Assembly (NCBI RefSeq): GCF_017592395.1
Contig: NZ_JAGFOU010000003.1
Coordinates: 1-64,000, forward strand
Source: Actinomyces bowdenii
GTDB taxonomy: Bacteria; Actinomycetota; Actinomycetes; Actinomycetales; Actinomycetaceae
Direction of reading: 5' to 3'
Length of the DNA: 64,000 bases
The notes below the pieces were generated by a model, which worked only from the letters and a program-made list of their open reading frames with translations, was not told the origin of the DNA and did not search any database. Of this stretch, positions 39,244 through 63,480 are shown in pieces. The stretch's first letter is position 1. Each line of letters opens with the position of its first letter. The translations under genes were made by a program, and so were the position numbers.

Positions 39244-39280
39244 TGAAGATGTGCAGTTCTGTGCTTGTTGCACATCTTCA
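39244..39280. repeat. Inverted 12-mer pair TGAAGATGTGCA-N13-TGCACATCTTCA
   Basis: The 12-mer TGAAGATGTGCA at 39244-39255 faces its complement at 39269-39280 with a 13-bp spacer. The same pair with the same 13-bp spacer occurs at 61289-61325. It may be a protein-binding site or part of a repeat element. Confidence 0.85.
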
Positions 39281-39369: not shown

Positions 39370-39413
39370 TTCGCGACGGAGGCGATACCTGTAGGTGTCG
39401 CCTCCGTCGCGAA
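39370..39413. repeat. Perfect hairpin in the long intergenic region
   Basis: A 20-bp stem including one G-T wobble closes a TGTA tetraloop. The stem begins TTCGCGACGGAGGCGA at 39370-39385. A further TCGCGAAG copy occurs at about 39428. No gene ends here, so a terminator role is not obvious. Confidence 0.75.
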
Positions 39414-60477: not shown

Positions 60478-61086
60478 TCATGGCCCCGACTCCGCCCGGG
60501 CCCGGCGGGGCGGGGGCTGGCCGGGCATGAACATGCTACTCAGGTCGGCCCCCTCCATCTCCAGCAGGCGCCGCTTGTGATCGACGCCCGAGGCGTAGCC
60601 GGTCAGGTTCCCACTGGAGCCCACCACCCGGTGGCAGGGGATGATGAGCGAGATCGGGTTGCGCCCCACCGCGCCGCCCACGGCCTGGGCCGCCACCCGC
60701 TCCCGCCCGGTGCGCTGGGCCACTTGCGCGGCGATCTGGGCATAGGTCATCGTCTGGCCTGAGGGGATGGAGCGCAGGATCTCCAGGACCATCCTCCTGA
60801 ACGGCGATCCGTCCACGGCCAGGGCCGGGGCGGTGAGCGGGGCAGTGGAGGGTCGCGAGGACTGCTGCGGGGACGGCTGCGGGCCTCCGGCCGGACCGCC
60901 GAAGTAGGCGTCCAGCCACTGGCGGGTCTCCTGGAATATCGGCAGGTCCTCCTCCTGCACTGCCTGCTCGTCGAGGGTGGCGCGATCGTGCTTCTGCCCG
61001 TCGAACCACAGGCCGGTCAGGTGCTTGCCGTCGCTGGCCATCGTCATGGGCCCCAGAGGCGAGTGGTAGTGGCTGTAGTAGTGCAT
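60478..61086 (-). CDS. ogt: Methylated-DNA-protein-cysteine methyltransferase
   Basis: This 202-residue suicide repair enzyme removes O6-methyl groups from guanine. The active-site Cys is in LIIPCHRVVGS. The DNA-binding HTH is TMTYAQIAAQVAQRTG, followed by AVGGAVGRNPI, which holds the Asn hinge. A variable Pro/Ser/Ala-rich linker (about 72-95) separates the N-terminal domain. ATG 61086 has GGGGGG upstream. It is divergent from folC with the 12-mer repeat array between them. Confidence 0.93.
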   Translation of the reverse strand: MHYYSHYHSPLGPMTMASDGKHLTGLWFDGQKHDRATLDEQAVQEEDLPIFQETRQWLDAYFGGPAGGPQPSPQQSSRPSTAPLTAPALAVDGSPFRRMVLEILRSIPSGQTMTYAQIAAQVAQRTGRERVAAQAVGGAVGRNPISLIIPCHRVVGSSGNLTGYASGVDHKRRLLEMEGADLSSMFMPGQPPPRRARAESGP

Positions 61087-61208: not shown

Positions 61209-61405
61209 TGCACATCTTCAGGCACCGATCCACCTGCCAGCCTCGGCCTTCCCGCAGGATTCCGCGGATCTGCTCGACCGGGACGGGCTGAAGATGTGCA
61301 ACGCGGGCGCCGCTGCACATCTTCAGCGCCCCCAGGCGGGTCTTGAGCTGGAGGTGCCGCGGAATCATGCGGGTCGACCAGTCGGTCGATTCTTGAAGAT
61401 GTGCA
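61209..61405. repeat. Array of four 12-mers in two 92-bp units
   Basis: TGCACATCTTCA occurs at 61209-61220 and 61314-61325. Its complement TGAAGATGTGCA occurs at 61289-61300 and 61394-61405. Each unit is 12-mer, 68 bp, complement; the two units are separated by 13 bp. The centres of the units share CCGCGGAATC-x-TGCGGG (61251-61267 on the minus strand, 61357-61373 on the plus strand). The array lies between the divergent ogt and folC genes. Confidence 0.9.
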
Positions 61406-61602
61406 GCAAGCGGGGCAGCTGGGGCGGATGGCAGATCCTGCGCAGCCCGTCTTCCCGGTCTCCTGAGGAGGGCCCGGGCGGGGATGAGGGCCCGGTGCCG
61501 GCAGGGCCGCCCCGAGCGGGAGCCGGTGCGCTCCGGGGGCGGGGCGCCGGGGTGCGGTAGTGTGCACGGGCTCAGGCAGGAGCGCAGATGGAGGATGCCG
61601 CG

Positions 61603-63480
61603 ATGAGTGATGAGAAGAACCGGTCCGAGGGCGGGGCCGGCCACCCGGGAGCGGCCTTCGGCATCCCCGAGGGGGCCAGCGGTGAGGAGGTCGTCGACGC
61701 CGTCTTCGGGCAGGCCGTCGGCGCGCCGGGCGCCGGGGGGGAGGAGGGCATCGACCCCGAGCTCCTGCCCTACCTGGAGGCCGCGGGCCGCACCGACGGC
61801 TCGGCCCTGGTGGGCGGGCTGTCCCTGGCCGAGGCCGAGCGGGAGGGGCTGGAGGCCCAGGCCGCCGCCGAGGCCCAGGAGCAGGAGGACCGCGAGGCGC
61901 TGAGCGCCCTGGTGGCGGCCAACCTCATCCCCGGCGGGGACCTGGACCGCCTCGAGGAGCTCCTGGCCCAGGCGGATGCCGATGACGGCGATGACTGGGA
62001 GTCCTGGGAGCCCCAGCTGCCCGACATCCCCACCGGGCTGGACGGACGGGGATCCCTCAGTGAGGAGGAGGCCCACCTGGAGGACCTCCGTACCGCCGCC
62101 CGGGCCATTGAGACCGGTGAGCGCATGCGCCGGATCGAGGCCCAGATCCTGGCCCGCGCCCCCGAGCACCAGGTCCAGCCCTCCCTGGAGCGCGTGGAGA
62201 TGGTCCTGGACATCCTGGGCAACCCCGAGCGCACCTACCGCACCGTCCACATCACCGGCACCAATGGCAAGACCTCCACGGCCCGTATGGTCGAGCGGCT
62301 CCTGGCGGCCACCGGCATGCGCACCGGCCGCTTCACCTCTCCCCATCTGGCCTCGATCCGCGAGCGCATCGCCCTGGACGGCGAGCCGATCAGCCCCGAG
62401 GGCTTCATCGCCGCCTGGGAGGACGTGGCCCCTTACATCGAGATGGTCGATGAGCGCTCCCAGGCCGCCGGAGGGCCGCGCCTGTCCTTCTTCGAGGTGC
62501 TCACGGTCATGGCGCTGGCGGCCTTCGCCGACCACCCGGTGGATGTGGCCATCATCGAGGTGGGCATGGGCGGGCGGTGGGACGCCACCAATGTCATCCC
62601 CGCCGATGTCGCCGTCATCACGCCTGTGGGGCGGGATCATGAGCGCTGGCTGGGCTCCTCGCTGACCGAGATCGCCGCGGAGAAGGCCGGCATCATCAAG
62701 GATGGCGGGACGCTGATCACCGCCCACCAGGAGCCGGTGGTGCGTGCGCAGATCGATGCCGCCGTGGCCGCCCGCCGCGTGGTGGAGTGGCGTGAGATCG
62801 ACCCCCAGGAGGATCCGGGCGAGCCAGGGGCGGGAGTCCTGGAGGTGGGGGAGCGGCAGATCGCCGTCGGCGGCCAGCTCGTCACGCTGCGCACGCCCGC
62901 GGCGGTCTATGAGGATGTCTTCGTGCCCCTGCACGGGCAGTACCAGGCCCATAACGCCCTGCTGGCGCTGGCGGCCAGTGAGGCGGTCTTCGGGGGCGGC
63001 GCCCTGCCCGCGCGCGTCGTGGAGGACGGGTTCGCCTCGGTCACCAGTCCGGGGCGCCTGGAGGTGCTGCGCTCCTCCCCCTCGGTGCTGGTCGACGCCG
63101 CCCACAACCCCCATGGCGTCGAGGCGCTGGTGGCGGCGGTGGAGGAGGTCTTCGGGCTCCGCCACCTGGTGGCGGTGGTGGGGGCCATGGCCGACAAGGA
63201 CGTCGAGGGGATCCTGGCGGGTCTGGAGCCGGTGACCGACGCCGTGGTCTGCGTGCCCATCGACACCCCGCGGGCCATGGAGGCCGCCGATCTGGCCGAG
63301 GTCGCCCGGGAGGTCTACGGGGCCGAGCGCGTCGTGGTCGCCGAGACCCTGAGCGAGGGGGTGGAGCGGGCGGTCTCGCTGTCCGAGGGCTTCGATGCGC
63401 CGCTGACGGCCTCGGGGGTGCTCATCGTGGGCTCGGTGATCCTGGCGGCGCAGGCCCGGGCCCTGTTCGGGCGCGCCTGA
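61603..63480 (+). CDS. folC: Dihydrofolate synthase/folylpolyglutamate synthase with long N-terminal extension
   Basis: FolC joins glutamate to dihydropteroate and lengthens the gamma-glutamyl tail. The 625-residue protein has the catalytic part from about residue 180: QPSLERVEMVLDILGNPE, then HITGTNGKTSTARMVERLL with the P-loop, FTSPHLASIRERI, EVGMGGRWDATNVI, TPVGRDHERWLG, KAGIIKDGGTLI, and VDAAHNPHGVEALV. Before it lies an acidic, low-complexity extension of about 180 residues, which is not part of the usual 430-residue enzyme. ATG 61603 follows GGAGG at good distance; ATG 61588 is an alternative. Confidence 0.93.
   Translation: MSDEKNRSEGGAGHPGAAFGIPEGASGEEVVDAVFGQAVGAPGAGGEEGIDPELLPYLEAAGRTDGSALVGGLSLAEAEREGLEAQAAAEAQEQEDREALSALVAANLIPGGDLDRLEELLAQADADDGDDWESWEPQLPDIPTGLDGRGSLSEEEAHLEDLRTAARAIETGERMRRIEAQILARAPEHQVQPSLERVEMVLDILGNPERTYRTVHITGTNGKTSTARMVERLLAATGMRTGRFTSPHLASIRERIALDGEPISPEGFIAAWEDVAPYIEMVDERSQAAGGPRLSFFEVLTVMALAAFADHPVDVAIIEVGMGGRWDATNVIPADVAVITPVGRDHERWLGSSLTEIAAEKAGIIKDGGTLITAHQEPVVRAQIDAAVAARRVVEWREIDPQEDPGEPGAGVLEVGERQIAVGGQLVTLRTPAAVYEDVFVPLHGQYQAHNALLALAASEAVFGGGALPARVVEDGFASVTSPGRLEVLRSSPSVLVDAAHNPHGVEALVAAVEEVFGLRHLVAVVGAMADKDVEGILAGLEPVTDAVVCVPIDTPRAMEAADLAEVAREVYGAERVVVAETLSEGVERAVSLSEGFDAPLTASGVLIVGSVILAAQARALFGRA

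Follow-up and report, generated by a model that had tools for sequence, protein, structure and literature searches.

Among described systems, that of the REPINs and their RAYT enzymes is the nearest in way of life to the repeats reported here. As laid out in PMC3116915, it has short inverted conserved words, less conserved spacers of constrained length and many intergenic copies, together with a nuclease gene that has copies alongside and a word spelling tied to the enzyme. Our repeats resemble it in each of these respects. Other relevant proteins have been described individually. The EDxHD homing endonuclease I-Bth0305I reportedly dimerises on a target of nearly 60 bp (PMC3943268). AbiEi and Rv2827c are described as binding inverted repeats in their own promoters, with AbiEi bending the DNA (PMC7319586). 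Giant proteins for which an action on invading DNA has been proposed contain Vsr domains of the MTES_1575 type (PMC3710099).

Here we describe a 197-bp array in a window of 64,000 nucleotides from Actinomyces bowdenii (contig NZ_JAGFOU010000003.1, positions 1 to 64,000). On balance, the evidence favours assigning this array to a protein-plus-repeat system, as one of the dispersed copies of a double-stranded DNA element. It differs from REPINs in that its interiors lack hairpins, its spacing follows helical turns and its core is common to elements with different arms, and from RAYTs in that the enzyme is AbiEi plus Vsr-like. RAYT itself was rejected, the Y1 (HUH) transposase domain PF01797 being found in 0 of 49 same-genus genomes and in 5 of 14 control genomes. 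Because both the Y1 enzyme and the hairpin were sought and not found, the array is not filed under REPIN/RAYT.

A four-armed array in the window

The element extends from 61209 to 61405 and consists of two units in inverted order. In unit 1, the outer arm TGCACATCTTCA (61209..61220, + strand) is followed by the core CCGCAGGATTCCGCGG (61252..61267, +), which has one mismatch to CCGCATGATTCCGCGG, and by the inner arm (61289..61300, −). A 13-bp spacer (61301..61313) separates the two inner arms, which gives a start-to-start step of 25 bp. In unit 2, the inner arm (61314..61325, +) precedes an exact core CCGCATGATTCCGCGG (61357..61372, −) and the outer arm (61394..61405, −). All four arms match exactly. 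The original prediction had named four arm copies, two 68-bp interiors, the 13-bp spacer and a central block shared by both interiors in opposite orientation, and each of these is present. Within the window, eight arm matches with up to 2 mismatches were detected, compared to 2.1 on average over 100 shuffles; no shuffle reached eight.

Divergent genes flank the element. By eye, and on gene models, we take the gene at 60478..61086 (−) to encode an Ogt/MGMT-like methyltransferase (PCHRVV motif), and the gene at 61588..63480 (+) presumably encodes a FolC-like protein. A third site that had been pointed out, at 39244..39280, does hold a 13-bp-spaced arm pair (arm −, 13 bp, arm +), as a bare inner pair; no outer arm with up to 4 mismatches starts 60–131 bp to either side. 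About 90 bp from this pair lies a second dispersed repeat, the hairpin TTCGCGACGGAGGC...GCCTCCGTCGCGAA (39370–39413), and relatives of that region are present in loci L039, L045, L054 and L057. At 71–146 on the + strand, the window also matches the Rfam family of group II catalytic introns (RF00029, 55.8 bits).

Copy number and helical spacing

We counted arms in the A. bowdenii genome (G000; 3.1 Mb, 54 contigs) and in 48 further genomes of the genus. G000 contains 185 exact copies of TGCACATCTTCA and 59 complete arm pairs with a gap of 57–68 bp, while the reversed control gave 0 for both. Exact arms number 74 in the sister species (G024) and 108 in a more distant, also element-rich congener (G037), and 0–7 in the 46 other genomes. 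Pairs with the 13-bp spacer (up to 3 mismatches) follow the same pattern, with 60 in G000, 13 in G024, 31 in G037 and none in the other 46 of 49. Random spacing or a lack of further pairs had been named beforehand as refuting a selected structure; neither is the case in the genome, and copy number and spacing genome-wide bear out the idea that the exact spacing marks such a structure. The first observation is real and larger in extent than first described. It should also be noted that contig C1 of genome G018 has seven exact copies of TGCACATCTTCA, including one inverted pair 102 bp apart, and that the best homolog there of the nuclease described below is only 41% identical.

Stretches around the G000 copies among the matches listed, which cover fewer than all 185, form at least 53 clusters. 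Of these 53, 39 are four-armed with a 25-bp middle step, and 19 of the 39 are spaced exactly 80-25-80. The inverted arms of 92 G000 units (up to 2 arm mismatches, among the matches listed) lie 69 (28 units), 80 (58), 81 (5) or 102 bp (1) apart, with 86 of 92 at 69 or 80 bp. All 46 inner pairs with up to 3 mismatches among the matches listed had an inner step of 25 bp. In G037, 44 units (up to 2 arm mismatches) extend this to a series of 69, 80–81, 90–92, 101–103, 113 and 123–125 bp with a best period of 10.9 bp. None of 5000 uniform draws was equally periodic, and the outcome was the same with spacings 69 and 80 removed (29 units left). G024 spacings match the series except for two units, at 85 and 90 bp, and units with poorer arms were also found at other distances. 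A step of about 11 bp is one turn of DNA, and helical phasing is typical of protein-held loops. One pair of identical G037 units, 4.6 kb apart (L151:7799 and 12437) and with similarly sized neighbour genes, looks like a tandem duplication.

Among the 53 clusters from the matches listed, 30 occupy tandem gaps, 14 divergent gaps, 6 convergent gaps and 3 contig edges, and they overlap gene models, which were made without a trained gene finder, by at most 33 bp. Since some clusters lie between convergent genes and the inner pair could form a hairpin, we considered that the repeats act as RNA, as terminators or REP-type stem-loops. This is barely credible given the other data. The interiors show no folding beyond that of shuffled sequence: mean z-scores against shuffles were 0.22, −0.24 and −0.19 for two G000 sets (29 and 59 units) and one G037 set (44 units), compared to −0.45 for control intergenic sequence, and on these values a hairpin or RNA element was rejected. 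Furthermore, 11-bp steps suit duplex DNA rather than the two-sided growth of a hairpin, 14 of the 53 clusters sit between divergent genes, and the array has no Rfam match at gathering scores, with weak sub-threshold matches only. Together, the helical steps and the absence of hairpins from the interiors point to duplex DNA that is held by protein at arms and core.

A nuclease gene between two element clusters

A gene for a 307-aa protein (G000:C1:276306-277226) lies between two element clusters. The flanking of a nuclease gene by cognate repeats, together with intergenic dispersal of the repeats, is the feature that REPIN/RAYT systems and this locus share. A close ortholog, at 70% identity, is found in G037 only among the 49 genomes; it is at the same locus, with four arms on each side and with neighbours conserved on both sides. 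G024 has no homolog at an E-value of 0.001. At the orthologous place it has a single 69-bp unit, which matches the left G000 cluster as well as the right one. In G024 the gene has apparently been lost, with one unit left behind. DNA identity alone, rather than a tree, suggests that G037 is the outgroup; on that condition, the gene looks to have been lost when the units flanking it underwent exchange.

Structural modelling (mean pLDDT 93.9) predicts that the protein is an AbiEi-like DNA-binding part joined to a nuclease of the Vsr/EDxHD-type fold. Residues 2–189 of the model align with the AbiEi structure 6y8q_A (Z 11.8 over 179 residues, two N-terminal domains), and the AbiEi-like part aligns with Rv2827c (1zel, Z 8.6); the folds of both the N- and the C-terminal AbiEi domain of these antitoxins (S. 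agalactiae AbiEi, Rv2827c) are thus represented. The nuclease domain matches 3hrl (Z 11.9), 3r3p of I-Bth0305I (Z 11.6) and 1cw0 of Vsr (Z 10.1). Residues E197, D224, E234, D236, H241 and D250 are invariant in 47 of 47 homologs; these are putative catalytic residues, which we take to correspond to the EDxHD letters. At an E-value of 0.01, MTES_1575 matches 45 of 47 homologs, DUF559 27 and AbiEi_4 12, while the score of the G000 protein itself falls short of both curated Pfam thresholds, that of MTES_1575 and that of DUF559. Unlike I-Bth0305I, the protein has an AbiEi-like DNA-binding part and many dispersed sites, and unlike that of a homing endonuclease its gene lies between complete elements rather than within its own target. 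In contrast to AbiEi, it has an extra nuclease domain, and the sites are dispersed through the genome and lie at the 3' end of the gene.

Of 396 genomes from the order, 251 carry homologs of the protein (E-value 0.001). The phage collection had 0 homolog records and the plasmid collection 1, and no plasmid match to the window element was found. These counts bear on whether the elements could be self-marking or decoy sites of a defence nuclease, which would titrate it or mark the chromosome so that arm loss is costly. The Abi-type and Vsr-type domains fit such a role, as do the conservation of arms in place described below and the MTES_1575-type Vsr domains of the giant proteins proposed to act against invaders (PMC3710099). 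However, G024 keeps its sites with no homolog, and homologs are nearly absent from phages and plasmids. We consider a defence role improbable. The conserved arms of G024 also count against the protein-plus-repeat reading, which must assume a recent loss of the protein or another binder there.

Homologs elsewhere adjoin elements with other arms

The flanked nuclease is the natural candidate for the protein that would bind at arms and core. At many homolog loci in other Actinomyces, inverted arms of other spellings adjoin the gene, often with the same core. Arms were shared on both sides at 17 of 53 homolog loci compared to 1 of 88 control genes (p 1e-7), and were present on at least one side at 40 of 53 compared to 24 of 88, leaving 13 of 53 that fail; this test left out L206 and L208 (contig edge, under 3400 bases), loci with N and 20 of 30 ogt control loci, which were too short. 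In the clade nearest the G000 protein, an inner pair with a 25- or 26-bp step was found at 18 of 19 loci and the full four-arm set at 10 of 19. Locus L199, in genome G020, has a good homolog and no element.

We used the homolog flanks to predict a degenerate inner pair. Searches that allowed 1 mismatch recovered it from 19 of 49 genomes and gave 0 for the controls; each positive genome has 3 to 43 copies with the gene-side copy counted. Where a homolog scores 180 bits or more, the pair is present in 16 of 18 genomes, compared to 3 of 31 others, for a threshold set after the fact and with G000, whose arms are spelt differently, counted as neither. The three positive others carry weaker homologs, and the two misses are G039, which has arms of its own, and G020. 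Across 17 loci, arm spelling tracks protein divergence (Mantel r 0.61, p 0.0004). By domain, the correlation with arm divergence was 0.67 for the nuclease, 0.61 for the middle domain and weakest, 0.34, for the wHTH; all of these correlations are confounded by phylogeny.

More divergent proteins also have repeats nearby. The second G000 homolog (30% identity) has the arm pair GTGTCCGGATYCC with a 110-bp step at its own 3' end (L325:3437-3558, G000:C1). To either side of the A. oris WVU627 homolog (WP_271289430.1; 33% identity) lie elements about 120 bp long that are near-identical, as judged by eye.

A core shared between different arms

The units hold a near-palindromic core, CCGCATGATTCCGCGG, with the arms about whole turns away. 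A core matrix made from G000 only scored G037 interiors above intergenic controls (p 1.5e-14). It also scored 32 unit flanks next to 16 homologs from other species above such controls (p 2.8e-15), with L199 omitted as having no element. In these species the first unit runs into the 3' end of the open reading frame, so that its core is partly coding. A clear core is not universal: only 16 of 44 G037 interiors score 8 or more, and the elements of L203, L205 and L211 have arms and no clear core. In 382,951 G000 bases selected for holding elements, all 9 exact cores fall inside the 9,014 bases occupied by elements. When up to 2 mismatches are allowed, 22 cores fall inside and 4 outside.

Outside this species group, 25 of 29 non-redundant exact cores lie between inverted arms compared to 71 of 1000 random positions, and 24 of 29 lie midway (within 1 bp) compared to 1 of 1000. 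Arms or homologs were the reason for retrieving most loci behind this count, though not for L168 or for the second A. oris element of L328. The midway cores have arm distances of 32, 37, 40, 41 bp and the like. At L328:6544 of A. oris WVU627, at a distance of 2.7 kb from the homolog, an exact core turned up unsought and is centred between GTGTCCACATCG arms (41/41 bp). In 89 G000 units the arm-to-core distances are 25/36/46–47 and 34/44–45/55 bp, in steps of about 10–11 bp on each side, with core positions taken from the alignment that itself defined the core. Steps are similar in the 16 of 44 G037 units that have a clear core. The core is also present in 16 viral contigs, with inverted arms, which are weak, around just 1 and none around the other 15.

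The 11-bp quantisation, the nuclease gene and a core common to elements with other arms all go beyond what the first reading of the window foresaw.

Common descent and conservation in place

Elements at different loci are related beyond their arms. Among 80-25-80 elements, 29 of 171 pairs at different loci share more than 50% of non-arm letters, up to 74%, compared to a shuffled maximum of 40%. The window element belongs to a group of seven in which all 21 pairs have at least 61% non-arm identity, while their flanks are 25–53% identical. Units are gained or lost exactly, and G024 has unit 1 alone at the window site. For the target duplications to which the original prediction looked, shared 4- to 9-mers at 49 G000 clusters showed no excess over re-paired flanks, and old duplications may have decayed. 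Of the three options that had been offered (regulator sites, nucleoid-protein sites or a small non-autonomous mobile element), the last comes closest, given common descent at different loci and a candidate cognate nuclease gene, with the missing excess of target duplications against it. Regulator or nucleoid-protein binding may apply as well, and whichever option holds, proteins probably bind at the arms.

The mobile-element option could also mean ordinary MITEs of an unseen DDE transposase, with the nuclease gene as a passenger. The element ends read TG...CA, a DDE hallmark, and copies do occur at different loci. This explanation is nevertheless highly improbable, since target duplications are not in excess, arm spelling is repeatedly tied to the nuclease clade in different species, A. 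oris included, and a shared core midway within different arms would be unexpected of passengers.

Comparison of 20 orthologous units between G000 and G024 revealed 6 changes in 439 arm bases (11 bases per arm, with three non-orthologous or doubly counted units left out; 12 of 551 with those units and 12 bases per arm). By comparison, changes affect 24 of 323 core bases, 157 of 938 other interior bases and 124 of 1103 flank bases. All 6 deviations from consensus in the 40 arms fall in G024, an asymmetry that is biased by G000 arms having been picked for consensus fit. The arms are kept by selection in place, and so the elements are either still active or of use to the host.

Such conservation raises the alternative that these are host-beneficial sites, with the AbiEi-like or another protein as a chromosome-organising or regulatory factor and the nuclease part secondary. 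Helical phasing would fit protein-held loops in this setting too. AbiEi and Rv2827c, as presented in PMC7319586, bind inverted repeats, and AbiEi bends DNA. However, tandem, divergent and convergent gaps are all occupied (30, 14 and 6 of the 53 clusters listed), elements at different loci are recognisably of common descent, arm spelling varies between species, and the putative catalytic residues do not vary among the 47 sequences. We regard a purely host-beneficial role as unlikely.

A proposed repeat system

We therefore return to the protein-plus-repeat reading. The AbiEi-like nuclease protein would bind the arms, and two or four protomers would close a small DNA loop, which would be why the arms are helically phased. 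The nuclease domains could then reach the shared core and nick or cut there, and repair or strand transfer from the core would copy elements to other intergenic sites. Binding, cleavage and element movement by the candidate protein are proposed here, as are host benefit and the manner in which copies spread. The division of labour would be the same as in RAYT and REPIN, with a different chemistry. In its full form, the proposal is of a so far undescribed class of Actinomycetales repeat system in which each AbiEi-Vsr fusion nuclease has dispersed elements of its own; these elements would combine a common 16-bp core with enzyme-specific arms at whole turns, spread within genomes by core cleavage and repair and have been partly domesticated. 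We put this forward tentatively, as an account whose chances are a little short of even.

In the literature searched, with bioRxiv and most subscription journals outside its scope, we found nothing on these repeats or on AbiEi-DUF559 proteins with repeats, and a search for the letters of the 12-mer and the core gave nothing relevant. The pairing of protein and element is new as far as these searches can tell. If the proposal is true, it would provide a DNA target, and perhaps a function, for a common actinobacterial family on which no study was found in the literature searched. It would also mean that the REP/RAYT way of life arose a second time, independently and on the basis of a different nuclease fold, and would offer a natural ruler for helical phasing. 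As arms vary by homolog while the core is often common, arm and core recognition would be separable and the arms may be reprogrammable.

Additional repeats associated with the elements

Locus L041:3140-4450 has about 1.3 kb of non-coding-looking DNA between two copies of an element 3' end, unmatched in G024. Long G/C runs follow it, and these may be an assembly problem.

Another arm, GTGTCCAAATCTG, was found in 16 of 49 genomes, with many copies single. Among the matches listed, its 26 exact inverted pairs are spaced at 109 bp in 24 cases, with one at 110 and one at 132 bp. The pair at the 3' end of the second G000 homolog is of this kind. Genome G015 has 102 copies of this arm, and 7 of 8 chosen pair loci there lie inside a separate MITE that carries the element. 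This MITE of about 540 bp (L291-L297; ends GGAAGGTTATTCTGGG, with L296 lacking the right end) has apparently been amplified recently, and its passengers are two arm-core-arm elements with different arm types.
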